Source: Hexactinellida sp. DTS-2022
Lineage: Eukaryota; Porifera; Hexactinellida
Direction of reading: 5' to 3'
DNA length: 64,000 nt
Assembly (NCBI GenBank): GCA_028753945.1
Contig: JAPNXP010000010.1
Location: forward strand, 5,273,042-5,337,041
Positions 15,046 to 45,774 of this stretch are shown one piece after another. The position numbers and the translations under genes were made by a program. The stretch's first letter is position 1, and each line of letters begins with the position of its first letter. A model generated the notes under the pieces. That model saw only the letters and a list, made by a program, of their open reading frames with translations, was not told the origin of the DNA and ran no database searches.

Positions 15046-15244
15046 GTATCTAATTCCAATTAACATTATGGTCGCTAATCATTCAGCCACGTGTAACCAA
15101 AAAAATTCCCTAACTCTTTTGTTATTTCCATAGCAACAAATGATTTACAATGGTATACTCCGGTTACAAAGTAATATTATTAAGATATACTTTGCAGAAT
15201 CCAAAATAAATTACTTGAACAAACTAACTTCATACAACAATCAA

Positions 15245-18816: not shown

Positions 18817-19252
18817 TCTACACTCGATTAGTTTCAGTTCCTTTAACACAGTTGCATTGTCCTATCTCTGCTGGCTGCACTTCTTATAGTCACACAGCTC
18901 GCAACACGCAACACGCCACTTCTCTGCTAGCTATCCCGATACACCACTAACCACACAACTCTTATCAGGCAATCCCAGAGCTCTCTGCTCGCTACACAGC
19001 CTGGCAACCATATGGCTACTATGCTACGCATAACCTCATTCAACTAATCTCTCCATAACAACAACATCTGTAGCTAGTTATGCTTACTTTCAGTTCTTAC
19101 CACTAATATGAATAATTTTATAGTTACAATGTAAGTTTCAAACTGCAATTAATGGAAACATGAAATGAGGCCATCAGGTTAGCTTCCAACTGGTATGATA
19201 AGTAAATAAGTATGCTGATTTCGAATTTCGAATTTATTTCTAGTAAGAATTA

Positions 19253-19851: not shown

Positions 19852-19852
19852 T

Positions 19853-19863
19853 TGGTAGCAGAG
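19853..19863 (+). promoter_or_regulatory. Primer-binding site for initiator tRNA-Met
   Basis: TGGTAGCAGAG starts one base after the 5' LTR and is the exact complement of the 3' end of animal initiator tRNA-Met (CUCUGCUACCA). Confidence 0.85.
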
Positions 19864-19881
19864 AGTGGTTGTAATTTAAAT

Positions 19882-20841: not shown

Positions 20842-21245
20842 ATATGGCTCAATCCATAAATCAGTACTCCAGAGAATCAATTGTAGCTTTGTGCCAACCT
20901 ACTCAACCATTGAAGGTTGTAGCGAAGATCGGAAATACTAATTGTAACGTTATGCTGGATAGTGGTTCATCGGTATCCCTTATTTCGAATTCAATATTTA
21001 AGAAAGTCAAGAATGCAAGAACTACCCCTACGGAACAGTTGTTATTTACTGCTTCTGGAAATACAATGGAATCCTTGGGTGAAGTAGAATTGGAAATTAA
21101 AATTGGAAAACTTCATTCGCCACAAAAATTCACAATAACACCTTCTCTAATAACGGATTGCATCCTGGGCGTGGATTTTTTAGCAAGACATCAAATTAAC
21201 CTGGATTTTTTAATAGAGTTGCTACTGGACCAAACCTTGGTATAG
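20787..21245 (+). CDS. pro: Retroviral-type aspartic protease (pro), -1 frame to gag
   Basis: Read after the -1 shift as FKLSGTCWESRNKVPEILN, then MAQSINQYSRESIVALC. The catalytic motif is LDSGSSVSLIS, and the flap-to-C-terminal part includes LEIKIGKLHSPQ and ITDCILGVDFLARHQINLDF, typical of a pepsin-fold retropepsin (ILGxDFL). The frame ends at TAG 21243-21245. About 30 nt before that stop is a second -1 slippery heptamer leading into pol. It cleaves Gag and Pol. Confidence 0.88.
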   Translation, partial: FKLSGTCWESRNKVPEILNMAQSINQYSRESIVALCQPTQPLKVVAKIGNTNCNVMLDSGSSVSLISNSIFKKVKNARTTPTEQLLFTASGNTMESLGEVELEIKIGKLHSPQKFTITPSLITDCILGVDFLARHQINLDFLIELLLDQTLV

Positions 21246-21247
21246 TA
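21206..21247 (+). promoter_or_regulatory. Pro/pol -1 ribosomal frameshift signal
   Basis: TTTTTTA is in the protease frame as T TTT TTA (21206-21212). After the slip the next codons (AAT AGA GTT ...) run without a stop into pol. A weaker hairpin (TACT..ACCAA-ACC-TTGGT..AGTA) starts about 10 nt downstream. A simple indel in the T-run is the alternative. Confidence 0.6.
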
Positions 21248-24200
21248 AAGTCTTTGGATTCGCAAGATAGTCCGCAACGCGTGAATCACACTTGTCCAAT
21301 ACATGATGAACAAAAATGTCCAGGATCTTATGCAGTCTTAAGATCGACAGATCAAGAACAAGAAGAAGACTGGGAGTGTTTGGGGGCAATTCCTAGGTAT
21401 GACTGCTCACCTTCGATTGAGTACCCAGACACAGAAGAAGAGTTCTCAGGGATAGTACTGAAGTTTCAAGATCTATTTGTTACTCTACCTGGCGTGGCAA
21501 AGGTCGATCCCTTTCCTGTCCGTACAGGTAATGCAGCTCCGGTGAAAGTTCCCCCGCGAATGATTCCACAAGCCTATCAAGATGAGATGAAGTCTCAGAT
21601 TGGAGAGATGTTGAGTAAAGACGTTATACAAGTTTCAAGCAGTCCCTGGCTTGCCCCACCGGTGTTAGTTGAGAAGAAAGATGGAAGTATACGATTCTGT
21701 ATTGATTATAGAAACTTAAACAAAGTAACTCAGAAAGATGCATATCCGCTGCCGCTCCCGGATCAGGTTCAGGACAAACTAAGCGGAATGAAATACTTCA
21801 CAAAACTTGACTTGAATTCTGGGTATTGGCAAATACCCATTAGGGAAATGGATCGTGAAAAAACAGCGTTTTCTCCAGGACCTGGAATGGGACTTTATGA
21901 GTTTAAGGTATTGCCATTCGGGCTTACAGGTGGACCGAGCTATTTTCAAAGAGTTATGGATCAGGTATTATGTGGACTTGAACATTGTAAAGACAATTTC
22001 ATTGATGATATACTAGTATTTTCACCGGATCTGGAGTCACATAGACGAGATTTAATGCAGGTTTTCCTACGGCTTCGTGAATACAAATTGACTTTAAGGG
22101 GAAGAAAATGTGTAATTGGAAAGCAATCTGTTACCTACTTAGGACACACTTTTTCTGATAAAGGAATGGCACCACAGACAAACAAGGTGGAATCCATTGT
22201 AAACTGGCCACAACCTACAAGTCAGAAAGAATTGAAACAATTTTTAGGCTTAGCGAATTATTATAGGCGGTATATCCAGAACTTTGCAAACATCGCAGAA
22301 CCACTGAATTCCTTGTTAGCTAAGGATATTATATTTTCTTGGAATGCACATGCAGGAAAATCATTCGCAGAACTTAAGGAAAAATTGGCATCGAACCCAG
22401 TTCTAATTTGCCCAAATTTCACGAAAAAGTTCGTATTGTGTACGGATGCGAGTGGAACTGGATTGGGGGGAGTTTTGGAACAAGAAGGACATGTTGTGGC
22501 TTACTATAGCAGGGGATTGAGCACTGCAGAAAAACATTATAGCACTATTGAATTAGAGTGTCTTGCGATTGTCGAATCCGTGAAGCGATTTCGACATTAT
22601 CTATTAGGAAGGCAGTTCGAAATACTCACTGATCATAAGCCATTAGAATGGCTGGAGAAGCAAAAGAGTGTCGGACGACTATGGCGTTGGGCTGTAATAT
22701 TACAGGAGTATGACTTTGTAATTCGATATCGCAAAGGAACTGACAATGAAAATGCAGATGCTTTATCGCGTTCTTCATATAATTTTGGAATTCTAGCTGG
22801 TAACGAAAATCACAAGCATTGTGCGCTCACGGAATTATCACGTTTACCTACTATGGAAATGATTAGACAACAACAGCTTGATGACCCTGTATTAGGCAAT
22901 GTATTATATGAGCTCGAGGCTATTCAAACTCGGCTACGATTCTCTGGTGTCAAGTGGAACCAACCGATACTCAAGCGTTTTAAGCAGATTCAATCACAAT
23001 TACAATTAATTAATGGAGTTTTAACTCGTAACTACAAGATTGAACCATTTTCCGACTTACGAAGTGTCATCATTGTTCCTGATACACTGAAACAAGATTT
23101 ACTATGTCAAGCCCATGACGATGCCGGTCACCAAGGCGTAGAACGCACTCTTAGTCGTGCAAAATATTTAGGATTTTGGGTTGGAATGAGCTCTGATATC
23201 CACGAGTATGTGACCTCTTGCGAAACTTGTCAAAAAGCTAAACTACCTTTACCGGTCAGAGCCCCATTACTCAATACTCCAATTGGGAGAACGATGCAAT
23301 TAGTTAACGTGGACGTTCTTGAAGTTCCTGTTAGTACAAAGGGACACCGATTCATCTTAGTAGTCGAGGACGCGTTTACAAAATGGCTGGAATGCATTCC
23401 AATGTCTGATCAGAAGGCTGAGACCATTACGAATATATTGGTCGACTTCTTTGCTAGATTCTGTATCCCTGAATTCCTCCATTCCGACCAAGGACGGAAT
23501 TTTGAATCTTGCCTCTTGAAAGAAACTTGTAGGTCGTTGGGAATCCGTAAAACTCGTACTACCCCTTATCATCCTCAGGGAAATTCTCTGGTTGAAAGGA
23601 GCAATAGGACGGTCCTTCAAATGCTCCGATGTTACGTGGAAAAGAACGAAGATTGGGAGAAGTATTTACACTTAGTTTTGCTATCATACCGAACTTCCAA
23701 ACATTCTAGTACTGGTATTTCACCTTTCCAATTAATGTATGGGCGAGACCCACCTGTCATAACGCAGTTTCTAACTCCAGCAGAATGCAACCAAACTTCT
23801 TATGAACAATTCTTGCGAAGGAAACTGATCGAGATACGTGAGTTTGTCGAAGGGAATTTGGTACAGGCACAGCATAGACAGAAGGAATGTTATGATGCAC
23901 ACACGAGCTCGAGGAATTCACTAAGGTTTACAGTCGGAGACAGTGTCTGGCTTTCCCTTCCACATTCTGGAGTTTCTAAGAAACTTGCAGACAGATGGGA
24001 GGGAGGATGGTTGGTGACTCAAGTTAAAGGCCCAGTGGATGTTTTAATTAAAAACACAGATGGTAGAGTTAAAGTGGTTCATGTTAATCGATTACAACCA
24101 CATGTTAGACGAGAGGGAAATGGCATTCATAATCTCAACCAATCGCTTATTCAAACAGATCGCAATAAGACTACAGAAACAAATAATTCACTTAATCATT

Positions 24201-24493
24201 ATAGATCGTTAGACAATGTAACCGAAAAGAGTCAATCATTACAAGAAGCGACTAATACAAGTCTTCGAATGGATGGTTCACTTCGAAATAGGTCATTTGA
24301 CGACATAGTTCCAATTGATTCTCAACTACAGTTATCTATGGATTCAGATTATAGCTTCATTAACTCGACTCCTACGAAGATGACATCATCTACCCCTAAG
24401 CCTGAGAAACCAAGTGAATTCATAGGAAAAAGTTGTACTCGACCTCAACGTGAACGTCGCCTGCCCAAATACTTAGAAGATTACCAAATATGA
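21209..24493 (+). CDS. pol: Pol polyprotein: RT, RNase H and integrase (Ty3/gypsy)
   Basis: Open from the pro/pol slip site to TGA at 24491-24493, roughly 1,090 residues. The order RT-RNase H-IN is that of Ty3/gypsy. RT: RFCIDYRNLNKVT, YFTKLDLNSGYWQIP, and the catalytic box as FIDDILVF (the more usual form is YxDD). RNase H: CTDASGTGLGGVLEQ, TIELECLAIVESVKRF, FEILTDHKPLEWL, NADALSR. Integrase: HHCC zinc finger (HDDAGHQGVERT..CETCQKAK) and a complete D-D-E (NVDVLE, LHSDQGRNFES, NSLVERSNR). The C-terminal tail, rich in Ser and Asn, has no chromodomain that I recognise. No breaks, so the element may still be competent. Confidence 0.93.
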   Translation, partial: FNRVATGPNLGIVKSLDSQDSPQRVNHTCPIHDEQKCPGSYAVLRSTDQEQEEDWECLGAIPRYDCSPSIEYPDTEEEFSGIVLKFQDLFVTLPGVAKVDPFPVRTGNAAPVKVPPRMIPQAYQDEMKSQIGEMLSKDVIQVSSSPWLAPPVLVEKKDGSIRFCIDYRNLNKVTQKDAYPLPLPDQVQDKLSGMKYFTKLDLNSGYWQIPIREMDREKTAFSPGPGMGLYEFKVLPFGLTGGPSYFQRVMDQVLCGLEHCKDNFIDDILVFSPDLESHRRDLMQVFLRLREYKLTLRGRKCVIGKQSVTYLGHTFSDKGMAPQTNKVESIVNWPQPTSQKELKQFLGLANYYRRYIQNFANIAEPLNSLLAKDIIFSWNAHAGKSFAELKEKLASNPVLICPNFTKKFVLCTDASGTGLGGVLEQEGHVVAYYSRGLSTAEKHYSTIELECLAIVESVKRFRHYLLGRQFEILTDHKPLEWLEKQKSVGRLWRWAVILQEYDFVIRYRKGTDNENADALSRSSYNFGILAGNENHKHCALTELSRLPTMEMIRQQQLDDPVLGNVLYELEAIQTRLRFSGVKWNQPILKRFKQIQSQLQLINGVLTRNYKIEPFSDLRSVIIVPDTLKQDLLCQAHDDAGHQGVERTLSRAKYLGFWVGMSSDIHEYVTSCETCQKAKLPLPVRAPLLNTPIGRTMQLVNVDVLEVPVSTKGHRFILVVEDAFTKWLECIPMSDQKAETITNILVDFFARFCIPEFLHSDQGRNFESCLLKETCRSLGIRKTRTTPYHPQGNSLVERSNRTVLQMLRCYVEKNEDWEKYLHLVLLSYRTSKHSSTGISPFQLMYGRDPPVITQFLTPAECNQTSYEQFLRRKLIEIREFVEGNLVQAQHRQKECYDAHTSSRNSLRFTVGDSVWLSLPHSGVSKKLADRWEGGWLVTQVKGPVDVLIKNTDGRVKVVHVNRLQPHVRREGNGIHNLNQSLIQTDRNKTTETNNSLNHYRSLDNVTEKSQSLQEATNTSLRMDGSLRNRSFDDIVPIDSQLQLSMDSDYSFINSTPTKMTSSTPKPEKPSEFIGKSCTRPQRERRLPKYLEDYQI

Positions 24494-29049: not shown

Positions 29050-29378
29050 TCAATCTTGACAACGGAACATGGCCACAAGAATTTTCCTCTCCCCAATAAA
29101 ACTCTTCCTTGCATGAGCAACCAAATAATTATCAACCAATAGAACATCACCTTTCTCCCAATCAAACATAACCATATTAGATAGACAGATATCTTTAACC
29201 AGTTTGATATCTAAATGGGATATTTCCTTACTGTCTCCATGAGTACAGTGCTTAGGATAATCCTCTGTTGGGAAGGAGGATAGAGCCGAGCTAACTGTAT
29301 CTGGAAGCTCTGAGGGATGGAATAGGAGAGAATGGTTGAACCAAACTTCTGCATTAGTGATCGGGTGACGCCGTGTTA
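29050..29378 (-). CDS. Megasynthase exon 5: TauD/SyrP-like oxygenase C-terminal part
   Basis: Joined at CTTCAG|TA it continues [19 protein letters not shown]. The distal Fe ligand His and 2-oxoglutarate-binding Arg are in [12 protein letters not shown], and the protein ends MFRCQD. With the HxE in exon 4 this completes the facial triad of an Fe(II)/2-oxoglutarate oxygenase. In bacterial NRPS systems relatives such as SyrP hydroxylate carrier-bound amino acids. An alternative acceptor a few bases upstream (ATTATGTAG) would shift the frame, so I prefer CTTCAG. Confidence 0.8.
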
Positions 29379-32300
29379 CTGAAGCAGATCTACATAATAG
29401 TACCGTTATAAGAACAGAAGTACAAATCAATTTATTTAATAACGAATGTGAATTGTAATAAATTTCACTCAAATTACAGATTTTTCTAACTACTGAAACT
29501 ATAATCTCAAAACTCCACAAAAATTTGGAATGTGTTGTGTGCCATTAAGTAGGCATTATCCTATTCAAAATAATTTGTTAATATAAATTACAATGTTAAG
29601 TATGAATAAGCAATTGAGATAGATCCTGATAGATCTGCTTTTTATGAACAATTATTCATACCCTTAATATGAACTGTGTATCATAGACAAGCCATATTAA
29701 TTAGATCATTATAGATATTTTAAAGTATCTACAATTAACCCAATTTCGGTCCCTTAAATGTTAACAACTGTACAAACCTTGAAGTTTTGAGTCTATCTTC
29801 TCTCCATTCAAATTCAAACCCCAGCTCTCTCAGGTATTCCTCCACACACTCGCGATCTTCTGTCCCATACGTGTCCTGCCAGCTCTTCCCGGGACCCTTC
29901 CCGCGGCTGTACAAATTCCATAAATACTTCAAACCGCGCGATTTCCAATCCTCCAACAATTTCCGCGGAATCTTTTCAAGAACGCCTCTAGAGCTCATGA
30001 GGGGTGTTTGCCCCCCACAGCCCAGGTTAGGCGGAGTTAGACAGAAGAATACAATGTGTGTGGGGGGGGTAGGGGAGTATGACATTTCGTTATGGGGAGA
30101 CATATCATATTTGGAAGGGTACTCTGTTGAAGTGTATATTCTGTTAAGAACTCGGGTTCTCGGCGAAATACCATCTATGTAGTCCAGACAGGGGCCGAAG
30201 AGATTACTCAATTCAGTTGTAAAATCTGAAAAATGTTCTGCACTCTCAAGTTTGAAATTCCTAAATAGCAGAGCCCCGCTACCTAGCAACAGGGAATGGA
30301 ATGTTTGGGAATACTTTGATAAAATATTTTTCAGATGAATGATGTCATTACAATGTTCACTTGAAGGCTCGATAACCAATGGAAATGTACTATTTGAGAA
30401 TAATTGTAATATTCTTGTATTAGGAATAGAGAAATCAGTCCCATTCGATAGATTCGTTGAGTTTGTGTGAGAATTAGAATTCAGTGGAAAGTGTATTGGA
30501 AAGTTTCCCCATTCAGCCTGTATATACCGAGACAGTTCAGAAATAGTGTTATACTCAGATAGAAGGTTAAATGATATTTTCCTATTTAAATTACTCGAAA
30601 TCTGTTCAGCAAGAGAAATAGCTAACAGAGAATCTAATCCCAGTTGTGAGAACTCCAATTCAAAGATATCCAATCTATCCATTATATCTGTTCCAACAAG
30701 GTTTGATAGAGATTCTAAAATAACTGTTTCAATATCAGTCGTATCTCTAGGAGTTCGAATTTCACGGTTCTCATCACTGGTTAGTTCTGGTAATGGGGAG
30801 TGGTTTGTTGGCTCTACTTGTTGTTCGCGGTTGTTTATAGCGCGAATAGGAGCCTCGCCTGCTGGCATAGACCCGCCCCCTAAAGCGGTTATCTGTTTCT
30901 CTCCGAAAGAAGCCGGAATTGAATTGGGACCTCCTGTCATGCTACTTGAATAGAAAGCAGAGTATAAATTTGAAACTGTAGAGAAAGTGAATTCGGATAG
31001 TTTAGCTAGCTTTTTACAATTTTCAAGACTTGTATTGCAAGCGAGGATAAGCGAAGTTTTCCATTCTAAATCTAAGGCCAACCAAATTGAACTTCCATTG
31101 GTGATACCTGTTAAGAAAAAGTAAGAATGTCTATCAGAATTAATCATGAAATCAATTACACCGTCTATAGGAATCTCACAAGATGTATGCCCAGTTAAGA
31201 ACTGAGCTAGACGAATGAGGTCATCTAGATTAGTATGAATTCCATCAGAAAATTTGAACGCTTCTCCACATTTCCAACTTGAGACTTTCACACCTTCAGT
31301 GGTGTAGCCCTGGTAATGCTTGAATTTAAGAGTCCTCATAGATGCTGTAATGAATGTAGATGTTAAGCCTAAAGGCTGTAAGATACATGTCTGCAGAAGG
31401 TCTTCGTAGCTTGTATCCGAAACAGCTGTTAGCGCGTGGGTAAGGAGAGCAGATCCAAACACAGAGTAGCGATACTTCTCGCCTGGTGCTGTGTGTAACT
31501 CACAGGCAACGAAATCCGCGAATAGATCAGATAAGGAATAAGTTGAAAGATCTGAAATTTCCCATTTGAGTTGCGATGGTAGGAAAGGCAAGCCAGATGT
31601 ATGTGTTGCGAGTTGGAATAGTGTGATATCACTTTTTGATCCAGATATTGAGAACTCTAAAGGTAACATGTCGAGTAGCCTAGTGTTGCGTGTAATTTGA
31701 CCTGTTGAGAGGAAGTTGTTGAATAGTATGTAGATAAAAATGCTGGAGAGACACCCAATGGGATATATAGTAGTACTTGATATAGGCAGTGGTGTGAGGG
31801 AATCAAATGCAGTAGTGCCACCAGGAAAACCAATGGCCAAGGATATATTAAAGTTGTGATGCTCTCCTTCTAAAAGCCTAGTTGAAACGTTCTTTATAAG
31901 CTGCATTATTGAAGGTGAAAGCTGTTGATCTATGATTTTGAAAGATGATTGAGGAACTGTATTAGGAGTTGCAGCGACTGGCATTGATAGCTGTGGAGTT
32001 ATTTGCGGCGTTTTAACACCATAGGGATTGATAATACTCTGTATATCATGCATGGTGAATTTCTTTCTCTGAAACGGGAATGGAAACATACGAAGTTTGG
32101 GAGTAGTCACATCAAATAAACCAAATAAGCTCCATTTTAAGTTAATTCCAAATTCCCATATCTCCTTGAATGTCTCAAGGTAATTACTGTTAGGAGCAAT
32201 GAGTGATGGGAACACATGGTATTTTGACAGATTATTTCTCACAATTGAAGATAACCTGTTTCCAGGGCCGATTTCTAAGAAAACAGGGTTCGCCATTTCA

Positions 32301-35300
32301 ACAGCCGATTCAAGTGCAGCGTAAAATAGCACTGGACTAACCATCTGTTGTTCCCAATAGGATACAGTAGAAACTGTTTTGCTATCCACCCAACCACCTG
32401 TGACAGTAGATATGTATCTGCAAGCTATGGACTGAGGAGAATACTTAACCAACAGATCTCTATACTCTGGGAGTATCCTTTCTAGCTCTTTAGAATGATA
32501 AGCTGTTGGTACGGATAATAGTTTATACTGCACAGATTCCTCAGCCAAATGACTGCACAGTTCCCCTATCTTACACTTCTCACCGGATAACACCGATTGT
32601 ATGGGACTATTTATAGCCGCGATTGACAAGCCAAACGTTGTGGCTAATCTCCGAGCAGTTATATGTTCTGTTTTAACAGCTACCATACCATAGCCCTTGA
32701 GTCCTAACATAAGCTTACTTCGATGGTAGACAAGCTGAATAGCATCTTCTAGTGTAAATACGTTATAGCAAGTTGCAACAGATATCTCTCCTATACTGTG
32801 ACCTATCAAAGCGGATGGTACGAGGCCAATTGAAGTGAGAAAGCGATGTAAACAAACTTGTAAACAAACTATGTACACCTGGAGTTCGGTTGAATTGACG
32901 TTAAGTGTTTGTGTAAATAACAAGTCGAGTAAATCAAATTTGAGCTTTGAGCGACATATGGCAACACATTGGTCGAAATATGTGCGAAAGGAATGTGAGT
33001 CTAAATATAATGCAAGTCCCATATTAGCAAAATGGGCACCCTGACCTGCAAATATTAATATCAGGTTGCTAGGGGATACATCTTTGGAATGCTTAACTGC
33101 GAGCTCACTGGAATTCCATTTCTTCAGTTGACTTATAAGATCGAATTGATTCGGAGATACGAAACATTTCCTGAAAGGGAGATTACGAGTTGTGTTGTAC
33201 AGAGAGACCATGATGCTGTCTAAACCTATCTCTGACTGCCGTTCAATTAGTTTAATTAGCTCGCTACATACAGACCTCAATGCATGTTCAGTGTGAGCAG
33301 AAATAGGACAGATAATACCGTTATCAGACCGAGTGGCATCAGTTGGTTTGTATTCTGTCTGTCTGTGTTCCTCTAAGATAACATGCACATTAGTCCCGCC
33401 CTGGCCCATGCCATTAACAGCTGATCTCCTCTCACTACCAACCCATGGCTCTACCCTACAGCCCACGCGGAACGGAATACTACTGTGTCTCTGCACATAG
33501 CTCTTATTCCAGCTGCTAAAGTGGAGGCTCGCGTACAGCACGCGTCTCTCCAGCTGCAGAACTGATTTGCATAGACCAGCCGCCCCAGAGGCATACCCGA
33601 GATGTCCAATGTTAGACTTAACAGAACCCACATTTATACTACCCGGAGTGTTGCTGTATTTGGAATACGCGCGATGCAGCGCTTCTAGTTCAATTTGGTC
33701 ACCGATATTCGTACCAGCTCCGTGTGCCTCGATAGAACCAACCAGCGTTTCATTCTTGTTGTCCGCAACTAAACTAATACAGTCTGTTATACAGGCAGTG
33801 AGCCTGTCCAGGCTGGGAGAGAAATACGTGTCCTTGTTGCTTCCGTCATTGTTGATTGCACTGGCGATAACTCTGCAGTATATCGGGTAGCCGTTAGAAA
33901 GCGCGTTCTGTAGAGTTGTCACTACGAGCAGGCCGAGTCCACAGCCAGAGACCAAGCCATCAGCTGTCTCGTCAAACGACTTGCAGTGGCCTACATAATA
34001 CACATTAATACAGTATCGTAATGGTGTACCAACGGACTGAGAATGTACTACAGTAAAACTCGGTTATAAGTCATAAAGTACCCCTCGGGAATGGAGGATA
34101 AGTCGTATTATCCAAGTTTACCTTACAATTATAGTATAACCTAGTTAGTACGAGCACCAGGGGACCGTCAAAATGCGTTCGCCTTATCCGGAATTCGTAT
34201 TAACCAATATCATTTGTATTGAAAAGGCTTTGAAGGGGACTGAAATAGTGCTTAGTATTAACCAAAATTCCATATTTTAACCGTGTTCGTACTAACGAGG
34301 ATATAATTGTTTTAAAAAACCATTAAGCCGAAGTATGTACTAACCCAGGTACGTTATAACCGAGTTATACTGACTACTGCATAACAACTGCCATCTCGCG
34401 TTGCTAGCACTACGCTACCTGAAGGAGAGAATATCATGTCCTGCTGCTCTCTAACTGCGGTTATTTGCGGAAACGAGACATCGACACCTCCCACGATAGC
34501 CGCAGTGCACTCTCCCGCGTGCAGCGAGCGGACAGCCAGATGCAGCGCCGTGAGAGAAGAGACACAGGTGCTCTTAACCAGGAGAGAGGGACCCGTCAGG
34601 TCCAGGTGATAGGACACGAAGTTAGCAGCTGTCTCCTCTGTCAGCACTCTCTGTATGTGGAAGGAGAGGGCGGGGTCCTGTCGCAGGGTGGAGAGATCAA
34701 CTCCTGACTCAGATAAGTAAGTGTTCGATGCACAGCCTATGTATGTACAGTTAATTTGATAATACAGTGGTGTTCGCGTAATAGCAAGTCGCATTTTGCA
34801 CGAAATTTGCTTGCAAATAATAGGCGAACTTGCTATTAGAGGAACAAAATTAACATTAAATACTCGCTTGGGGACAACAAATAACTTGCTAATATTGTTA
34901 TTAGAGCAATTGCTATTACGCGAACACTACTATATACAATACTCTCGTTAATATGAACACCAAAGGATCGTCGAAATCTGTTCGTAATATTCTTAATTTG
35001 TATTAACCGAAGTGATTTGTATGCATTTGTATATGCTATAGAATTAAACCTTTTCGCATTAACGAGAGTCTACTATACTGTAGTGTGACATTAATTACCG
35101 ATTATCCCGGATATAACAATCTGCATCAGTCACATCAACCAGTTTCAGTTCTAACATACTAATTAACTTCCTATACAAGCTTATAAAGTTTGGAATATGG
35201 TAAGTACTGTTGTATGACAGTTTAACTACCATGACAGTTTAACTACCTTGTATTATTGTAACCATGGATATTCTAGCCATGACAGTTTAACTACCATGAC

Positions 35301-38300
35301 AATTCTACAACTTATTTTTATGACTTCCTCAACTTGTAGTTCCTATTGCATGATGACGCATTCAATTTCACATGGCGTATAAAGTTTGATAGGCTCTTAT
35401 AATTGTGTTAGTTACATTATCATTTGTTTCTCAGCGATTTATAGTATGTATTATGGTATAGCGTTGATTGAATTAATACTATTAGAAAGAATGCGTCATC
35501 ATGCAATAGGAACTACAAGTTGAGGAAGTCATACAAAGAAGTTGTAGAATTGTCATGGTAGTTAAACTGTCATGGCTGGAATATCCATGGTATACTAATA
35601 CAAGGTAGTTAAACTGTCATGGTAGTTGAACTGTCATACAACAGTACTAATTGTGTCTAACGAAATATTTGATTTTTCCGAATGTTTAGTTGGTTCATGG
35701 CCTACGTAATATATTAAGTGGGCCATGGTTGGTTCTATTGGAGTCACAACAGTCGAGTTTGCATCAGTTAGTAGCATTAATAACCAACCAATAAATACTC
35801 CCACTGTTTCTGTCTCCAGCGAGAGAGCAGCGTCCCTGATAGCGTCAACAGACAGCTCCAGCACCAGTCTGTACTGAGGGTCCATTAGACAGGCGTCCAA
35901 ACGGGAAATGTTAAAATAATCTGCGTCGAATAACTCCGGGTCAGAGAGACACCCTCCTGCCGCGATAAAACCCTCTTCTAACAAAATAGAGTTAATATAT
36001 ATTATATACTATATAGTACAAGAGTATTGAGATATTGCATAGTGTCCATATAGTAGTTAAAAAAAAGTTATTTGTTTGTAGTACAGTAGATGCCGGGTAT
36101 AAGAACATTATATCGGCAAACGGTTTCCATATACCCTGTATAATTTATGCCGGTTATAAGAACATGTCGATTATAAGAACACTATATGCAGTTCCCGACA
36201 ATGTTCTTATATCCGGCATCTACTGTATGTGTATTTGTGCGTTTGTTTGTTTGTATGTCCAGGATTAATAGGTTAATTTATAATATATAGTATAAGAGTA
36301 TTGAGAATCTCAGGGTATTATACAGGACTAGAATTGAACACTCCTAACTGTCCTAAGGTCGCTAGAGTATTAATTTTGTACGCATAAAAGGTTAGTTTTG
36401 TATTACTCTATGGGGACTTTCGGCAGTTTTCGCGCTCCTAAACGCAAACATATCCCAATTTATATGCATCGAGGCGTATGGCGTGCTCCTGGATAAAACC
36501 CTAATTGAGATACTGCATAGTGTCCATATATTAAAAAAAGTTCTTTGTTTGAATGTTGTATTTGTGCGTTTGTTTGTTTGTCCATAATTAATAGGAAAGA
36601 ACATATGCTCTGGAAATGTTAAATTTGCATGCAGGGGTAATTTTACACGGTGACAACGATATATTGGTTTTCTAACGAAATAACAATATTATGACGTCAT
36701 AAAACCATATTTAATAGTACAGTAGATTCGTTTGATTGTAAAACATCTAATCTTATAAATGTACGAAAAAATATTGGGAACTTTAACTTGTACTGGTACA
36801 GTAGAACCTCATTAGTGCGAACACCAGGGGAATTCGCATTAACCAATATCGATTGTATTGAAATGACATTGAAGGGACTGAACTAGTGTTCGTATTAACC
36901 ATGTTCGTACTAACGAGGTTCTACTGTACATATTAACTTATAAGAGACACTACATATATTCTCACCAGCATGTAGTTCTGTAATACAATCTTTCCCTTGC
37001 AATAGAATATCATGGAACGCTTCTTTACTGTCACTTAACGGGAACTTACAAGACATCCCTATGACTGCTAATGGGGGATATTTAATGTTAGGGGAGTCCA
37101 TATCTTTTCGCGGTGATTCTAAAGCAGGATTGGAGTTTATCGTTTCAGTTATTTTACCAGTTTTGTTCGCAATCCAGTTAGATTGAAGCCACACAGTATT
37201 GTGTGTCAGTATTTCCGGCAAACTCAGATGGACATTGAATCTCTGCTGCAGCTTATAATGCAGTTGCACCAGCAGCAGAGAAGTGCCGCCTAGCGAGTGG
37301 AATGTCTGAGAGAGTGCCACCTCTTCCAATCCTAACACCTCTCGCCAACACGTACACACCTCCTCGAGAAGATTCTGACTCACAAAACTCGGCAGACTAA
37401 TATCCTTCTTAACTTCCCTTCTATCACTCGTAATGCTTTCAAAGAGAATTTTCCGATCAACTTTCCCGTTTATTGACAAGGGGAATGTTTTGTAGAAATA
37501 ATATTTTGAAGGAACCATGACGGGAGATAAATAGTTCCTCGCATGCATCTCTATCTGCTCTGCTGACACATTATTCTTACAGAGAATGCAGGCGAATAGG
37601 ATTCTAACATTTGACTTATCTCTGGTTTTCAGAAACACTATAGCTAACTGTACAGATTCGTGCTTCATTAGAACATTCTCTATTTCGGAGAGTTCAATTC
37701 TTTGACCGTCCAACTTAACTTGAAAGTCGTTTCTACCTAAAAACTCTAATTTACCATCTTCCCTTTGCCGTACCTTATCGCCAGTACGGAAATACACGTT
37801 GGAATCTCCGGATGCGTGTTGTATAGTAACTAGTTTACAGCTGTTTTCTTTGGGACAATGGAGATACCCAGACATGATGGCCCCACTAATAAGCAGCTCT
37901 CCTGGCGTTGACAACGGCACAGGACGTAGGAATGCATCCACAATCATAAGATGAGTATTGGGCACAGCTGTTCCTATAGTTAAGCTGGGAGCCTGGCAAT
38001 CTTCCATTGTGATATGAGCACTCGAGCATATCACGGTTCCTTCTGTAGGACCGTAGGAGTTGTAGAGAGTGAGGTGGGGATAGGATCTCAGTATGTTATA
38101 CATTATACCTGGAATGGCGACATCTCCACCGAAATCGACAAATTTCATGTGTTCGAATATTTCCGGTATTGTTTCATAAACAGTGTGCAATACAGGAGTT
38201 GGTAGTGTCATGTATGTGATGTGATTCTGAATAACAGCTTTGCAGAGTTTGTGTAAATTAAGTCCGAGACAGCTTTGGTGGATAATCACACCTTTTGTGG

Positions 38301-41300
38301 CATTAAAAATAGATCCATACACTTGTAGTGTTAAAATATCGAATGAAAGACTGGAACAGATTAGTACAGTGTTATTGGGGAAGTAGAATGGTTTGGATTT
38401 AACATGGATACGAGATAGGAGCGAGGAATGTGGAATGGCGACAAATCTCGGTTCGCCTGTGGAGCCGGATGTGGACATAACATAAACTGTTGGGTTTGTT
38501 AATGCAAATTTGAGGTTGATTGGAATTTCAATGTAATTCAATTCACTTCTATCGAATACAGAAATTAAATGGGATTCTGATCGTACTTGATTACAAATCT
38601 GTTGATACTCTTTTGTAGTTAGTATTGCAATTGATTTTGTAGCTTCCAACATATTTTGTATGCGTTTAATAGGAAGCGCAGGATCCACCAACAGATAAGT
38701 ACAGTTACTGATAAGAATAGCTATTTTAGCAACAATCAATTCAATCGAGAGATCCATTAAGACAGCTATGATAGGATGGCCACTGGATTGGTTAACGAGA
38801 TCTCGTATAACTCTTGCGTAGGAATAACACTCAACAAAGAACTGTTTATACGTTATAGACCCATCATCAAATACAAATATTATTTTATCTGAGTTCTCAT
38901 TGCAAATCTTGTAAATTAAATCAACCACATTAACAAACTCAGATCGACAAGTGACACCTGTCAAAGCTAACTTATGTGGCTCTGGTAGTGCCACAATTTG
39001 AGACAGGGGTGTATCAATCGAACCACAAACAGCTTCCAATAACAGATTGTATTGAGTTAGAATATTGCTTGAGAATTCTTGTTTTATCCTAGACTGACTT
39101 ATGGTTAATGTCTCCTCAATTCGTGTGTTCGTATAATTAACTTCCATTAGGATATCATGCAGGAGAGTTGGTAAGAAATCGAATGCGTTTAATATTTCCG
39201 CATTTCCATACTTGCTACCTAAGTCAAGCGAAGTTTGTAATTGATTTGAATCAAAACTGAACACCACAGGCAACTTGGTAAGCCCATTGGAATTTTTGTT
39301 CATAAATGGATGTATTTTCTCATAAGAGATTGGTGAATTCTCTAATGCATTATGGAAAATAATTTGGATGAATTTAGTCAAATCTTTGAATGAGAAATTT
39401 GAACACAAATCCTCGCTATCAAGATTAATAGCTACGGGTATTAGGTTTACACTGGGGCCAAAGTGCTGCTCACTAATTAGTGTTGATCGTGTTGATACAG
39501 GTGTGATAATAACCGGTTGTAGAGATGGTTCTAGGAGAAAAGTAAACAAGTAAACAAAAGCTGACAACAGGGTTATGAAAGGTGTCACACCACATTCCTG
39601 ACTGGCTCTGTGGATACTTTTTGTTGATTTAAATTCGAGGACAGATTTATAAATTTCTGGCATTTCTAATAACGGATTTGGTTCAGTTATATGAAGCATA
39701 AAAGGTTTTAACTCATTAGTAACAAATTTAGAGAGATTTTCTTTCCAGAATTTGAGGTATAACTCATCATCGAAAGAAGTTAATTCCAAGAAATTCGTGC
39801 TTTTTAGTATGTATTTTGGATAATCTTTCATGAACAGTTGGAACTCGTTCAACAGGAGATTAACTGACCAACCATCGGCAGCAATATGGTGGATGATGAT
39901 GATAATAAGAGATTTATTTTCTGTTATTCCATTAGATATTATGTCAACAAATGTTGTTCTGATAGGAATACTAGTCTCTAGGTCAAGTGGTGAGTTCACT
40001 TCCGATTTAATTAAGTTCTTTATTTCAGGAATATCCAATGGACTTTCACTGTATCCAGGAGGAATAGTTATTTGAACATGTGTGGAGGGGAATTTTGGAT
40101 TTGGAATAAGTTTCTGTGAGAAGCCAGTAGACAGAGAATACACAGTTCTTAGAATTGTGTGATTTTGTATAAATGTAGTGAAAAATTCCGTCACAATATC
40201 CCAATCAAGTTGGTTGCTATAGATACAGATTGGAATGTGGTATGCAGATTCCTTTTCGTTTAAAACGTAGGCAAGTGCGAATTGACGCTGTGTAGCAGCG
40301 AGAGGAAATGAAATATGAGTCCCAGTATCTTCAGATTGTATTTGCAAGTTTAACTGTTGTATGATGAGAGAGCAGAGTTGATCCAAAGAAAGTATATTCA
40401 TAAAATCATTCGTATCCAAATTAAGACCGAAATTAGTGTTAATTGTATTACAAAGGTGTGTGGAGAATTCAGTTTTATGTAATTCGGTTTGTAAATTAGA
40501 TTCTGAGAGATTTGGGAACAGTGCGATCAGCTGTTTGAATATTTCTTGTTTTGAGAGATCCAAACTTTTTGAGTTTTTGCATTCATTCTCTCCGTCTAAA
40601 GCAACTACTTTATAATTATACTTTCCAACAATAAACTGTGCTAGCTTAGCAACAGTAGAGTGTTGAAAGAATTCCCGTAGAGACACAGATATCTCAAGGC
40701 TGGCATTTAATTGTGAAACCAACTGAAGAGCTATAATAGAATCGCCACCAATGTTGAAGAAATCAGAAGAACCAGAAATATCTAATTTAGGAAAATAACT
40801 CTTGTAGATACTCTCTAGTCTAGTAATGATATCAACGCTAGTTTTATTGTTAGAGGTATCCATGGTCTGTGTAGCCATAAGTTCATGCTCTGAAATCTCT
40901 CCAGTTTCAATCCATTTCAGAAGTTTTTGTCTATCAACCTTCCCAGTCACACCCTTTGGGAGTTTCCTTAGCAAATACAGCTGACTCGGCACCATATAAG
41001 GAGTTAGTTTGTTTCGGAAATGTTTGGTAAGTTCCTCTTTCAGAGAATCGTATCTCTCCTCCTCCAAACTAGTGCTACAGAATCCGATTATAGACACGGG
41101 GACACTGGCCTCAATAAGGCACACAGCAACGAACTCATTTACGCCTGCACATTCCGTAGCAACGCGTTCTATCTCTCCGAGCTCCAGTCGCTGACCGCGC
41201 AGCTTTATCTGCCAATCGCTTCTACCAATAAACCTGAAATTACCTGAAAAGTCTAAGTAGCCTAGGTCCCCTGATTTGAACAGTTTCGTAGTTACATGTT

Positions 41301-44300
41301 GGCTGAATTGGAATGTTTTGAACTTCTCCTTGCTCTTCTCAGAGCTGTTAAGATATCCCAGCGCTACAGTAGACCCTCCCACTAATATTTCCCCGACAAT
41401 TCCCTTTGGCAACAGATTCATGTGTTTATCCACAATGAATATAGAGCTATTAGTGAGCGGCCGCCCTATAGGAATATCAGCGTAGCACAACTCATTTATG
41501 CGATAAATACTGTCGACAACAGTAGCCTCTGTGATACCATGCAGGTTATAGAAGTTCCTAGGAGGGCCTTGCGTTAGAATTCTATTCGATAGACTAGGTT
41601 GTAGAGTGTCTCCGGACAACATTAGTGAGTGGAGATACGAGAATACACGCGGGTAGCATTTGGAAATGACGTCACAGAGAGGTGGCGCTAGCATCATACA
41701 GTCGATATACTGGCGGTGGAGTAGCGAGGCGAATAGAGAGAGATTTGCCAAATACTTTGTCCGTTCAAACATACACAGAGTAGCACCATTCAGCAGCGAG
41801 CAATACAGCTCATAAGCGTAAATATCGAAACTGAAAGAGGACACCTGACAGAACCTAGCGCCCGGGGGCCCCACTAGTTCTGGCGTGTTACAACACCGCG
41901 ATATTATATTAGCCTGACTCACTATAACGCCTTTAGGCCTGCCAGTACTACCTGACGTGTATAGTATATACCCTATCTCATTAGCAGGCTGTATACTACC
42001 CATACAGGCATCAGTGTTGCTGTTAAGCAATATAAGCTCTATGTTGATGAGCGCAGTGATTTGATTTGACGAGAGATCTAATTCAGTGCTGCTGTCTATG
42101 AGAACAGCTGATATATTCGCGTCCTGTATCATGTACTGTAATCTCCCAGCTGGGAAGTCCGGGTCTAAATACACGTAACCGAAACCTGCGAATAAAGCCG
42201 CGAAAATACCGGTTATTAGGCTGAGGGATTGCCGCATGCAAATTCCAATAACACACTTATGTTGCTGGGAAGATTCCAGTAGAGACGGTACAATTAGTGA
42301 AATTAGCTCATAGAGGTGTGAATATGTGTATAATCGGTCCTCAATCTCAAGAGCGATGGCGTGGGGAGTGTCCACAGCCCATGCATGGAATATGTGTGCG
42401 ATCGAAGAGCTGGCTAGCTTAACGCACGGAGCAGAACTTATCGACATAACTGCTTTGTACTCGCTTTTGGAGAGAAGCGAGAAACGAGCCAGGAGAGAAG
42501 TGGGACGGGCACACACGAACTGAAGTAACTGTCTGAAATCATGTCCGAACTGTCGCATGTAACTCTTGCTAAACTTACAAGTTCTATAATTGAATCTGGC
42601 CTGCAGACCCCCATTCCCCATCAGGTCAATGGAGAGCACTAAGCTGCTCTTCGCCTGTAGGTTAACCTCGGGATAGAAGCAGTATTCTCGCACAGAATAC
42701 TCACTGCTTCCCACGGACTTGAGAACTCTGCTGTGCTCGTGAAACACAAACAGAGCCTGGAGAGTGTCATCAAACGGCGCTGCTACCTCCCCTCCCGTCC
42801 TAAGCGCACTCACAACCTGCTCCAGCGGGACGCTGGCGTTATCCAGGGCCTCTCTCACTGTCTTATGCATCTTTGTTAAGAGCTCCGAAAAACTGTGCTT
42901 AGTGAGAGACTTCAGAAGCCCGAATTTACTCCTGATTAACACAACATTAATTAACGGACCGATCAGATCCATTCCCTGTGCTATAAAGGGTCGTAGGCTC
43001 ACAGGAGTGGCCACCGTGACGTCATCTTGGTCCTGTGCGTATTTAGAAAGTAGGAACAGGAATGTGGTTAGTAGAGTTGTGAAGAGAGAGGTGTTATGAG
43101 CTAGCGACACCTCTAGAAGTCTGCATTTGGTGTCAGCACTTATCTCACAGATAAACTGATCAGCTGATTGAGTACCAGATGTACTTTCTGAGTCAGGTAG
43201 TAAGTGCAGTGTCTCCATAGCTTGTAACTGAGAGCGCCAGTATTCTAATTGACCTTTGAACCTCGCTTGGTACTTCTCTGATCTCTCTTCCAACACAAAG
43301 CTTATATACTGCGGGGGATTCGTGTAGATTAGTTTAGCAGAACTGTCTAAGTACGTGTTGTATACAGTGAATAGTTCTACAGCTATTTTGTACATCGAGA
43401 GACCGTCAATGAGGATATGATGCGCAACCAATAGCAATACTAATTTCCCGTCAATTTGCTTTGAGAAACTAATGGAATGCTGTGTATCATTCAAAATGAA
43501 TAATTTAACTTGGAAAAGAGGTAGATTGTCTAAGTGAAATTCTTGCTGTATACTATCAATGATCTCTTGGTTCAGTTTAGCAGTTGACGTTTGTAATATT
43601 TGTAGTTTGTAATTAAGATTGGGATGAATCGTCTGATGGAACTCTTGTTTGTCAAGGTGGAATGTTGTGCGTAGAATTAAATGCGCAGTGATTACGTCAT
43701 TAATCGCAGTTTGTAAAAGTGGCACATTAAACTTACCCTCTATTTCTACGGAAATGAATTCATTGTAAGTGTATTTCGAATTATCTGACTGATGCAGGTA
43801 ATACAGCTCTTCTTGTGCGAAAGAAAACGGGATTCTCTCTGGCAAATTATCCGGTAAAACGAGTTCCAAATTAGTGTTTGTTTGTTTCTCACATCTCATA
43901 TTCGATTGTATAAATTCACACAGATTCTGTACAGTAGAATTCTCTATAAACTCAAACACAGGCATACATACATTAAACTTACTCTCGATATCTTCAAACA
44001 GTGACATCACGAGCAAGGAGTATCCGCCTAATTCCATAAAACTGTCTGTTAAACCGATCGAATTAGCTTCCAAATAGAGATGCTTTGCGAATACAGACGT
44101 TACAAACTCAACAATTTCGTTATCAACTCGAGGAGAAGACGGCTTGCAATTTGTTTCCCAGTTAAGCAGGAACGGATCTGGCAAGGAATCAGTATCTATC
44201 TTGCCAGAATGCAAATGTTGGAATTCTTTCACGAATATATACACTGTTGGTGCCATGTATGTTGGGAGAGTTCTAGCTAGCAAGTTGTGGATCTGTTTTT

Positions 44301-45774
44301 GTCGATTTGTGTCCTTCCAGTAGGGGGGACCGTTGGACACAGATGGGACACAATTTTGGTCCAATTGTACATACGCGACTAGAGTTGTGTCCTGTTTCGA
44401 AGGAGTAAACACACGGACGATTGCACGCTCTATAAAGGCTATTTTGTGTAAATTTATTTCGATTTCTTTCAAATCACACTTTGATCCTGATATCTTTATC
44501 TGATCATCTAATCGCCCAACAAATTCCAATTCACCACTCGGTAACCAGGATACCAAATCACCTGTTTTAAACCCTTCTATTGCCCTTTCATTCGGAGACA
44601 GGAATAAAGGACAAAATTTACGTTTTGTCAATGCAGGGTTCTTATAATATCCGTGAGAGAGACACACTCCAGTAGCTATCAATTCCCCAACAACATACGG
44701 GTCCTTAAGAATGTCACCCTTTTCATCCACAACATAACAAGTGACACCTGTTATAGCGCGACCAATTGGCACCTTTTGGTGCTCGTCAGCACCACTAATG
44801 CAATCCGGATTAACCACGTAATATGTGACGTCACTCGCTATCTCAGTTGATCCGTAGAAATTAGCAAGAGTGCAGTTAGGCAAAAAGTTAAGGAATTCTT
44901 CTGCAATGAAATCGTACAGAATTTCACCTGAGGATACGGTGAATTTAAGTGCGGGCAATTGTTTCCCAGTCGAGCCAATAGCTCTGTTAATTCTCCGCAG
45001 AATAGATGGAATAGTGGAGAGATGCGTGACTGAGTGCGATGACAAAATATCAAGGAAAAGTGGTATTCTCATGAACAGTGGTTTCGGTACAATTACAGTG
45101 GTTGTGCCTACGAGTAGGCCACCAAGAGACGACCACATAAAGTCTGTGAAAGAAGGAGAAGTCTGACAGCAAAGCAGGTCATTTGGGACAAACGGGAACT
45201 GTTGCCATTGCCAACAAAACCGGTTCAATATTCCGGTATAACTTCCCATAACACAGTTAGATTTACCGGTAGAACCCGATGTATTCAATAGGTACATGAC
45301 GTCATAATCAAATTCAGATGCACTCTGATGGAACACGAAATCAGCTGACTGAATCTGGTCACACAAAATAGACTCAATGAATACTATAGGAAACCTTATA
45401 TCTCCATCTGAGAATAATTCTTTCGGGAAATATTGGTCTATAATTAGAATATCTGGCGCGCGAGATGAAATAAAGTCTGTGACGATATTTTGGTTTTTGT
45501 GCCTGTCGATATTAAGGAGAATGCTACCGTTCAATATCACAGCTGTAACGGCTGTTATGTAATCAAAATTCTGTTCGACACAAATACCAACCACATGATG
45601 CCTAGCAACGCCTATTTGCGATAGGAATTCACGGAGTTTATTAGCATTACGTTCAAGTTCAGAGTATGTATTGTAAGAACTATTGTCTGCAATGACAGCA
45701 ATGCCAGAGCTGTTTCTGTTGAACTGTTCGCTGAGAAGATCCAGCATTTCCTGGTATGGATGTGCAGTTGCCAT
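29050..45774 (-). CDS. Hybrid NRPS-PKS megasynthase with TauD-type oxygenase (five exons, ~4,631 aa)
   Basis: Splice model: exons 45774-36966, 35977-35789, 34736-34419, 33990-29740 and 29378-29050. All four introns are phase 1 and the total is 13,896 nt in one frame. The start ([10 protein letters not shown]) has an in-frame TAG a few codons upstream. Domain order: A1-T1-C1-A2-T2-degenerate carrier-C2-A3-T3-KS-AT-beta-lactamase-like-ACP-TauD oxygenase. Such an assembly line would load an amino acid at A1, add two more, extend once with malonyl-type units and hydroxylate while carrier-bound. No thioesterase or reductase is visible, so release is unexplained. A phosphopantetheinyl transferase must act in trans. 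Introns, animal-like flanks and AT-rich codons make it a resident eukaryotic gene, whatever its origin. Exon joins are inferred from sequence; the KS N-terminal part is ~20 residues shorter than usual, so one small exon may be missing in intron 1. Confidence 0.9.
29740..33990 (-). CDS. Megasynthase exon 4: KS C-terminal half, AT, beta-lactamase-like, ACP, TauD N-terminal part
   Basis: Exon 4 starts [16 protein letters not shown] after TATGTAG|GC. KS His residues are in [10 protein letters not shown] (~residue 3197) and [17 protein letters not shown] ~3400-3700 has [12 protein letters not shown], the Ser in GHSIGE (~3503) and AYHSKEL, a form closer to malonyl- than methylmalonyl-type (inference). 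Residues ~3785-4115 look like a class C beta-lactamase fold ([26 protein letters not shown]), but the nucleophile motif SxxK reads CLSS and YxN reads YSV, so it is probably inactive. ACP Ser ~4223 (LGLDSLL). TauD/SyrP-like oxygenase from ~4300, with the Fe-binding pair in PHNEMSY (~4408). Confidence 0.88.
34134..34311. repeat. pogo-like MITE in megasynthase intron 3
   Basis: Ends AACCTAGTTAGTACGAGCAC and GTTCGTACTAACGAGG are inverted. It contains TTATCCGGAATTCGTATTAA as in the other copies. It occupies ~180 of the 428-bp intron. Confidence 0.6.
34419..35977 (-). CDS. Megasynthase exons 2 and 3: ketosynthase N-terminal half
   Basis: Exon 2 (35977-35789, 63 codons) joins as [20 protein letters not shown] and contains [16 protein letters not shown], the KS DPQxR signature. 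Exon 3 (34736-34419, 106 codons) starts [13 protein letters not shown] and carries the active-site Cys in [16 protein letters not shown], a variant of VDTACSSSL. Donors and acceptors: TTG|GTTGGT, TACATAG|GC, TTCAG|GTAGCG. The 1,052-bp intron between them contains three MITE-like insertions. Confidence 0.85.
34765..34930. repeat. MITE with CAGTGGTGTTCGCGTAATAG ends
   Basis: Left CAGTGGTGTTCGCGTAATAG and right TATTACGCGAACACTAC are inverted repeats with TA-rich flanks. It lies in megasynthase intron 2. Confidence 0.65.
34938..35076. repeat. pogo-like MITE in megasynthase intron 2
   Basis: Ends ACTCTCGTTAATATGAACACC and GCATTAACGAGAGTCTACT are inverted repeats, directly beside the MITE at 34765-34930. 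Confidence 0.6.
35203..35648. repeat. Foldback MITE in megasynthase intron 2
   Basis: Arms of ~150 bp: AGTACTGTTGTATGACAGTT ... GATGACGCATTC pairs with GAATGCGTCATCATGC ... GTCATACAACAGTACT. Short direct repeats of GACAGTTTAACTACCAT lie within each arm. Confidence 0.8.
36084..36225. repeat. MITE with CAGTAGATGCCGG ends in megasynthase intron 1
   Basis: CAGTAGATGCCGGGTATAAG on the left and CTTATATCCGGCATCTACTG on the right. A shorter copy of the same family is at 45885-45967. Confidence 0.75.
36799..36926. repeat. pogo-like MITE beside the exon 1 donor
   Basis: CAGTAGAACCTCATTAGTGC and GTACTAACGAGGTTCTACTG form clean terminal inverted repeats with TA flanks. It ends ~40 bp from the exon 1 splice donor at 36965. 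Confidence 0.8.
36966..45774 (-). CDS. Megasynthase exon 1: three NRPS modules and start of KS
   Basis: 2,936 codons. A1 ~1-540 ([11 protein letters not shown] at ~163, [24 protein letters not shown], catalytic Lys in HSGKID). T1 Ser ~585 (GGYSL). C1 ~645-1070 with HHILIDG at ~785. A2 ~1110-1625 ([11 protein letters not shown] ~1270, [23 protein letters not shown] ~1610). T2 Ser ~1676 (GGDSI). Residues ~1725-1800 resemble a carrier without the GxDS motif. C2 ~1810-2250 with HHIAADG at ~1961. A3 ~2280-2790 ([11 protein letters not shown] ~2435, [23 protein letters not shown]). T3 Ser ~2828 (GGTSL). KS begins ~2895 ([11 protein letters not shown]). The exon ends GCTG|GTGAGA. A1 is unusual in having T-D at pocket positions 235-236. 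Confidence 0.92.

Follow-up and report, generated by a model that had tools for sequence, protein, structure and literature searches.

A glass sponge gene for a probable hybrid peptide-polyketide assembly line with a terminal TauD-like oxygenase

Natural products of sponges are frequently attributed to bacteria, and the locus described here raises the question of whether a glass sponge owns an assembly line for peptide-polyketides itself. The window, a stretch of 64,000 bases from Hexactinellida sp. DTS-2022, carries on its minus strand (45774-29050) a single gene that combines non-ribosomal peptide synthetase (NRPS) and polyketide synthase (PKS) domains with a TauD-like Fe/2-oxoglutarate oxygenase in one protein of 4622 amino acids (aa). 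We consider it highly probable that this gene, which lies in the nuclear genome of a glass sponge, specifies an NRPS-PKS assembly line that is intact.

Splice reconstruction gives five exons (36966-45774, 35789-35977, 34419-34736, 29778-33990 and 29050-29389, all on the minus strand), which join into 4622 codons and a stop without any internal stop. The introns between them (35978-36965, 34737-35788, 33991-34418 and 29390-29777) are 988, 1052, 428 and 388 bases long and all have GT-AG borders. The sequence-only reading that preceded this analysis had described one five-exon gene with good splice sites, and in this it was right. Its phase 1 for all introns holds for introns 1-3 and is ruled out by intron 4, which is in phase 2, and its product of about 4,631 residues was slightly too long. 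The splices are required because joining the exons completes two Pfam matches: the ketosynthase N-terminal model is a 35-residue stub in exon 1 alone but covers positions 3-252 of 252 after splicing, and the E-value for TauD goes from 1.9e-17 in exon 4 alone to 1.6e-36. A protein of 4604 aa annotated independently in the glass sponge Oopsacas minuta is continuous across the same exon joins and matches both the predicted start (HPYQEML near the N-terminus) and the predicted end (MFRCQD).

Pfam searches of exon 1, exon 4 and the spliced ketosynthase (KS) and TauD regions give the order A-T-C-A-T-C-A-T-KS-AT-PF00144-ACP-TauD, with adenylation (A), carrier (T), condensation (C), acyltransferase (AT) and acyl carrier protein (ACP) domains. 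There are three AMP-binding, two Condensation and three plus one PP-binding matches besides KS, AT and TauD, and the strongest (AMP-binding, E 9.2e-145) puts chance out of the question as their source. Exon 1 holds the whole NRPS part, A1-T1-C1-A2-T2-C2-A3-T3 with a stretch without Pfam match between T2 and C2, and the beginning of KS. The loading adenylation domain A1 (aa 1-540) lies at 44155-45774, C1 (aa 640-1110, HHILIDG) at 42445-43857, A2 (aa 1118-1620) at 40915-42423, C2 (aa 1820-2250, HHIAADG) at 39025-40317 and A3 (aa 2262-2790) at 37405-38991. KS (aa 2898-3315, 33362-37083, C-H-H present) is spread over exons 1-4, with exon 2 entirely KS and the active-site Cys (aa 3057) in exon 3. 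Exon 4 continues from the end of KS through AT (aa 3410-3740, 32087-33079, GHSIGE and TAYHS), a beta-lactamase-like PF00144 domain (30947-31999) and ACP (aa 4180-4262, 30521-30769, GLDSL) to the N-terminal part of TauD (aa 4300-4622, 29053-30409, with H-x-E, a distal H and an R), of which exon 5 encodes the C-terminal part and the stop.

The core motifs of A, carrier and C domains, together with KS, AT and ACP, make the protein a type I modular NRPS-PKS hybrid. All the domains named in the sequence-only reading (three A, two C, three carriers, KS, AT, ACP and the oxygenase) were recovered by Pfam on the spliced product, while the PF00144 domain between AT and ACP (E 1.1e-19) had been overlooked. 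Pfam found no dehydratase (DH), enoylreductase (ER) or ketoreductase (KR) in the protein, which does not have the domain set of animal fatty acid synthase-like PKSs (AFPKs).

Protein searches with exon 4 and exon 1 placed 12 homologues above all other matches, six of them found with exon 4 only, five with exon 1 only and one in full length. The last (P0123) is the Oopsacas protein, named 'Hybrid non-ribosomal peptide synthetase/type I polyketide synthase [Oopsacas minuta]'. It is 68% identical to the window protein over 4581 aligned residues and has the same Pfam domain set including PF00144 and TauD. This protein is known by database name only; a counterpart of the window gene was thus already in the databases. 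Identity to the window protein is 57-91% among the 12 records, and the exon 4 sequences of the window and seven others are all distinct, with pairwise identities of 55-91%. The next proteins among the best 120 of 506 and the best 120 of 405 matches show 23-33% identity and, as far as they carry names, come from bacteria and a few fungi; these searches depend on shared words, and the gene may also occur in demosponges or other animals.

The counterparts appear to share intron sites 1, 3 and 4, judged from the points at which their reading frames depart from the common sequence. Of the exon-1 frames, four diverge after ...AGE and a fifth after ...TGK, as would be expected of translation through a phase-1 donor (G/GTGAG or G/GTAAG). 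Two exon-4 frames start just before GHCKSF, at intron 3, and six end at TSR or TAR or at most six residues past it, at intron 4.

In an alignment of all 12 homologues, none of the 29 inspected catalytic or motif positions has changed. Six or seven counterparts cover 26 of these positions, and P0123 is the only one to cover the other three (the KS Cys, the distal TauD His and the TauD Arg); for A7, the Gly of TGD was taken as the position to score. The intact motifs include HHxxxDG in both C domains, the Ser of three T domains, C-H-H of KS, GHSxG of AT and the Ser of ACP, which bears out the earlier impression that most catalytic motifs are intact. In TauD, the 2-His-1-carboxylate triad (H4405, E4407, H4602) and the 2-oxoglutarate-binding R4611 are present by motif. 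A resident gene could nevertheless be a decaying relic, conserved by descent and inactive as an enzyme, and two features fit such a fate: the embedded beta-lactamase fold has been stripped of its catalytic residues, and about 90 residues between T2 and C2 (aa 1725-1815, 40330-40602) contain no recognisable domain. However, all 4622 codons are open, the 29 positions are kept although up to 43% of all aligned residues differ between counterparts and window, and the altered letters of the beta-lactamase fold are identical in all seven counterparts that cover it, as under selection rather than decay. This makes a relic very improbable, and the gene probably encodes an intact, old, conserved and working assembly line. 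In a profile comparison the T2-C2 stretch was most similar to ACP (E 3.8e-4, but with a match probability of 15%); it is possible, though unproven, that it represents a dead carrier.

The gene is resident in the animal genome. The assembly has 112,398,167 bases in 18 contigs, and the window (C2:5273042-5337041) lies 5.3 Mb into its contig. Introns 1-3, though not intron 4, have matches elsewhere in the window. Within intron 1, a stretch of 375 bases gave 40 scored matches on 15 contigs (itself included, thus 39 further places) from 2317 first-look candidates; the repeat is therefore present on at least 15 of the 18 contigs, and most matches span only its first 150 bases or so. The G+C content at third codon positions (GC3) is 0.403, inside the range of six other frames in the window (0.301-0.491), in agreement with the host-like base usage noticed before. 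There are 14 frames of at least 150 aa in the window, three of which belong to the gene, and ten of the other eleven were scanned with Pfam. Among them are frames for NHL-repeat proteins, gag, protease, reverse transcriptase/integrase, an OTU-like protein, a secretin-type receptor and THAP, that is, animal-type surroundings. It is because of the contig position, the dispersed intron repeat, the neighbours, the GC3 value and the counterparts that break at the same intron borders that residence, as already proposed from the sequence, can be stated plainly.

The same observations bear on the idea that bacterial (symbiont) DNA was misjoined into a sponge contig. Sponges harbour NRPS-rich bacteria, and the nearest named relatives of most domains outside the sponge set are bacterial. 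Such a misjoin would, however, have to lie inside an 18-contig genome of 112 Mb, to carry four introns, of which three contain repeats that recur in the rest of the window and the first has one at 39 further scored places, to show GC3 in the host range, and to share its intron borders with counterparts. As far as sequence can tell, we regard it as ruled out by contig position, repeat-bearing introns and GC3, with a residual likelihood close to nil.

Whole-genome profile searches read exons singly, so that all counts are lower bounds. The only two condensation domains that they found are both in the gene. AT matches are likewise two, the gene and one on contig C11, and the five KS matches comprise three exons of the gene, a complete match within a frame of 432 aa on contig C7 and a weak one on contig C1, so that KS and AT were seen together in this gene only. 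The separate KS on contig C7 and AT on contig C11 are presumably mitochondrial type II enzymes, so that the gene would hold the only type I KS. One phosphopantetheinyl transferase match was found, an intact 277-aa reading frame on contig C7 (L028, 1159-1992), and this single gene could prime the assembly line; if it is the only one in the genome, it must serve the assembly line and the mitochondrial ACP alike. Further TauD-like matches on contigs C16 and C4 (L036-L041) are in pieces, as if split into exons.

From where did a sponge obtain such a gene? Among 247 collected proteins, the best matches outside the sponge set are 22-41% identical and, where named, bacterial, except for a TauD domain from a rotifer. 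An ancient bacterial origin is plausible because these matches are distant and bacterial apart from that one. The part of the earlier proposal that points to bacteria thus agrees with the matches, while no donor was found among 26 loci inspected out of 68 listed matches from 386 and 396 genomes of two phyla.

The TauD domains of the window, Oopsacas and the rotifer were combined into a profile, which found 25 bacterial loci. An open reading frame (ORF) with a C-domain match lies near TauD within the fetched stretch in 17 of these 25, and 27 of the 28 TauD ORFs there have no other searched domain, the remaining one being C-A-T-C-TauD. At 1e-60 the TauD profile matched 27 of 386 genomes in the phylum of the Cyanothece locus and 11 of 396 in that of the Pyrinomonadaceae locus. 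The 26 loci inspected from these matches, 20 with short flanks and six with flanks of four to twelve kb, represent 25 sites (L059 and L069 are the same). No KS or AT precedes TauD in any of them. Bacterial SyrP-like TauD proteins, beside or fused to NRPSs, belong to the same TauD family and are 31-41% identical to the sponge TauD. One account, which cites work on SyrP, attributes to such enzymes the hydroxylation of Asp and similar residues for NRPSs (PMC7100376). In the five fused sites among the 26 loci a C domain precedes TauD, as it does in all six distinct fused bacterial ORFs whose order was examined by BLAST (L009 and five of the six fetched regions) and in P0009. The sponge TauD, in contrast, directly follows ACP and not a C (interface) domain. 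The succession of AT, a catalytically stripped beta-lactamase fold, ACP and TauD, absent from the bacterial records inspected for order, adds an architecture to the known ones.

A protein of similar order in another animal is P0241 from the bdelloid rotifer Rotaria sp. Silwood2, which has 2875 aa and reads A-T-A(part)-T-C-A-T-KS-TauD. This is the sponge order with gaps: the rotifer record lacks one C, half an A, most of AT and the ACP, and the start of an AT can be seen by eye between KS and TauD. In a maximum-likelihood TauD tree of 39 rows, the four sponge domains and the rotifer domain group at 99/97 against 34 others. In the corresponding A-domain tree, rotifer A1 groups with sponge A1 (100/98) and rotifer A3 with sponge A2 and A3 (99/99). 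A quick KS tree separates two sponge rows and the rotifer from 45 others with a Shimodaira-Hasegawa-like approximate likelihood ratio support of 96, on very long sponge and rotifer branches. FastTree warned of long branches meeting in the A-domain tree, and the careful TauD and A trees flagged odd letter make-up in some rows, including window TauD and A3.

The rotifer protein is not accepted as a plain orthologue. Identity per domain is only 25-42%, and rotifer domains other than TauD are not the best matches of the sponge domains by plain identity. By position the counterpart of the rotifer C should be sponge C2, yet its sole BLAST match was C1; the rotifer KS and A-part are 42% and 47% identical to presumably bacterial rows, and the branches are long. 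Sponge and rotifer A1 might also group by substrate class, because the A domain of P0166 (residues 539 on), which has a shifted Asp in its pocket, is sister to the pair (92/97). Nevertheless, the order and the TauD and A1 trees suggest that the sponge and rotifer lines share an origin. Order and trees are most simply explained by a shared line that both animals took up, but its acquisition by each from related bacteria has at least the same likelihood as descent from an animal ancestor of both. Tentatively, and short of an even chance, we propose that the assembly lines of glass sponges and bdelloid rotifers descend from a single one, acquired very early and kept since by glass sponges, which joined a beta-amino-acid starter to two amino acids and one malonyl unit and ended in an oxygenase. 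In this proposal the beta-lactamase fold buried in the protein is new as a domain and has been refitted for release or gating. If this is true, animals share a megasynthase family distinct from that of nematodes, and this in a phylum reported to lack type I KS enzymes altogether.

What such an assembly line would make can be outlined from its domains. A1 is predicted to load a beta-amino-acid-like starter because its pocket has no Asp at the alpha-amine position and an Asp one position later. The pocket reads TDWSVSFSD in the window and TDWxVT(F/L)SD in six others, so that T-D-W-x-V-(S/T)-(F/L)-S-D holds in seven of seven rows. An Asp displaced from the first pocket position to the second is presumably typical of beta-alanine codes (for example VDWVISLADK). 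A pattern search found it in nine of 475 collected A domains, namely seven sponge A1 domains (window included), rotifer A1 and P0166. C1/A2/T2 and C2/A3/T3 would then add two amino acids, with pocket letters (DIYMMSLVV for A2, DILTDGSVI for A3) that show at most a few conservative changes in six others. KS-AT-ACP would add one malonyl unit, and with no KR, DH or ER found this unit should remain a beta-ketone. The C-terminal TauD may act in cis and hydroxylate a residue bound to a carrier, the role proposed for its bacterial relatives with NRPSs. The product would accordingly be of the hydroxylated peptide-polyketide type, as far as can be judged from domains and motifs.

Since the protein contains no thioesterase, release would proceed by ring closure or by an enzyme acting in trans. 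The likeliest route, though doubtful in itself, would be for the last amide nitrogen to attack the beta-keto thioester and form a ring of tetramic-acid or pyrrolinone type; a malonate-extended amino acid carries an amide nitrogen placed for a five-membered ring on the thioester. The fungal tenuazonic acid synthetase TAS1 is likewise an NRPS-first hybrid without a fused thioesterase and releases by ring closure, according to the accessible text (PMC4640141). TAS1 consists only of C-A-PCP-KS (PCP, peptidyl carrier protein), however, and its cyclising KS has the triad C-H-N, whereas the sponge KS has C-H-H and is accompanied by AT and ACP (PMC4640141).

The beta-lactamase-like domain offers another candidate for release. 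In a phmmer search of solved structures, the domain matches D-Ala carboxypeptidases and class C beta-lactamases (best E 5.4e-9). The SxxK and YxN motifs of serine beta-lactamases and S12-type hydrolases are absent, and membership is by fold profile only. The window and seven of seven counterparts read CLSS at SxxK and YSV at YxN, with Ser, Lys and Asn lost, and because of this replacement throughout, the domain is not a canonical serine hydrolase. It might be an active release or acyl-transfer domain that uses Cys for Ser and replaces the thioesterase that Pfam does not find in the protein, and all seven counterparts indeed keep both the Cys in place of the nucleophile and the Tyr of YxN. We consider this unlikely; the Lys of SxxK is Ser and the Asn of YxN is Val in all of them, and the domain sits before ACP and not after it. 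The domain may instead be a retained pseudoenzyme with a docking or gating role, or one refitted around the conserved Cys. A JGI NRPS of 3283 aa (P0247) has a PF00144 domain near its C-terminus in which, by eye, the motif SLSK is kept.

The enzyme could also be active without releasing a secondary metabolite, in a housekeeping or signalling role like that of insect Ebony or the non-canonical animal NRPSs. No second NRPS was found in the genome, the pocket letters are nearly constant across counterparts, A1 is presumably of the beta-amino-acid type as in Ebony, and no obvious tailoring enzyme was seen among the ten neighbour frames scanned, where intron-split genes could escape. Three A and two C domains with a PKS module and ACP nevertheless look product-forming, which leaves such a role distinctly unlikely.

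Several points weigh against an intact assembly line of the sponge. The reading is drawn from sequence. An organism is named for one of the 12 homologous records, Oopsacas minuta. The predicted structure of the beta-lactamase-like domain is poor, with a mean predicted local distance difference test score of 41. Pocket letters were taken by anchor motifs, with GrsA as the source of the anchors, and compared with known codes; they do not name a substrate firmly. Pfam recognised no terminal release domain in the protein (thioesterase, reductase or C-type), which does not exclude membership among NRPS-PKS hybrids because some of them, such as TAS1, are without one.

Animal lines of this kind have been described in nematodes, where PKS-1 and NRPS-1 make the nemamides, called the only known animal hybrid peptide-polyketides in the part of the paper available (PMC8363725). 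The nematode system consists of two separate megasynthetases with the PKS first, whereas the sponge has one protein with the NRPS first and with TauD and a beta-lactamase-like domain (PMC8363725). Rotifer hybrids are described by sequence and expression (PMC11258130, accessible text). A survey from 2024 that included 896 sponge transcriptome assemblies reports no sponge-encoded type I fatty acid synthase or PKS ketosynthase, a statement which, as worded in the accessible text, the present gene contradicts (PMC10764717). A survey of 1059 animal genomes lists NRPSs for 7 of 19 phyla; sponges do not belong to these and are not mentioned in the portion available (PMC10531068). The accessible part of PMC12833800 treats gene bundles for sponge alkaloids. 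The main text of the Oopsacas genome paper (PMC10280926) has no mention of ribosomal peptide, polyketide, horizontal or secondary metabol, and PMC10282587 contains none of the searched NRPS, PKS or transfer words. Among the best matches in the open-licence literature, no published description of the gene or its counterparts was found. Glass sponges at least would own a complete hybrid line, which makes it testable which glass-sponge chemistry is animal-made and how animals acquire and keep such lines.

The window contains no tRNA (ARAGORN) and no Rfam match at gathering scores. Three NHL-repeat proteins close by, at 8581-9822 (minus strand), 15140-16477 (plus) and 17608-18849 (minus), look like local duplicates. 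Three separate frames at 19852-24493 encode a gag-like protein with zinc knuckles, an aspartyl protease, reverse transcriptase, RNase H and integrase, and are probably of Ty3/gypsy type. The sole Pfam match of a 1244-aa frame at 52349-56083 (plus) is a weak OTU-like protease near its end. Intron 2 of the gene contains a palindrome of about 446 bases (35203-35648) with an opposite-strand self-match of 82%, which resembles a foldback or miniature inverted-repeat transposable element.

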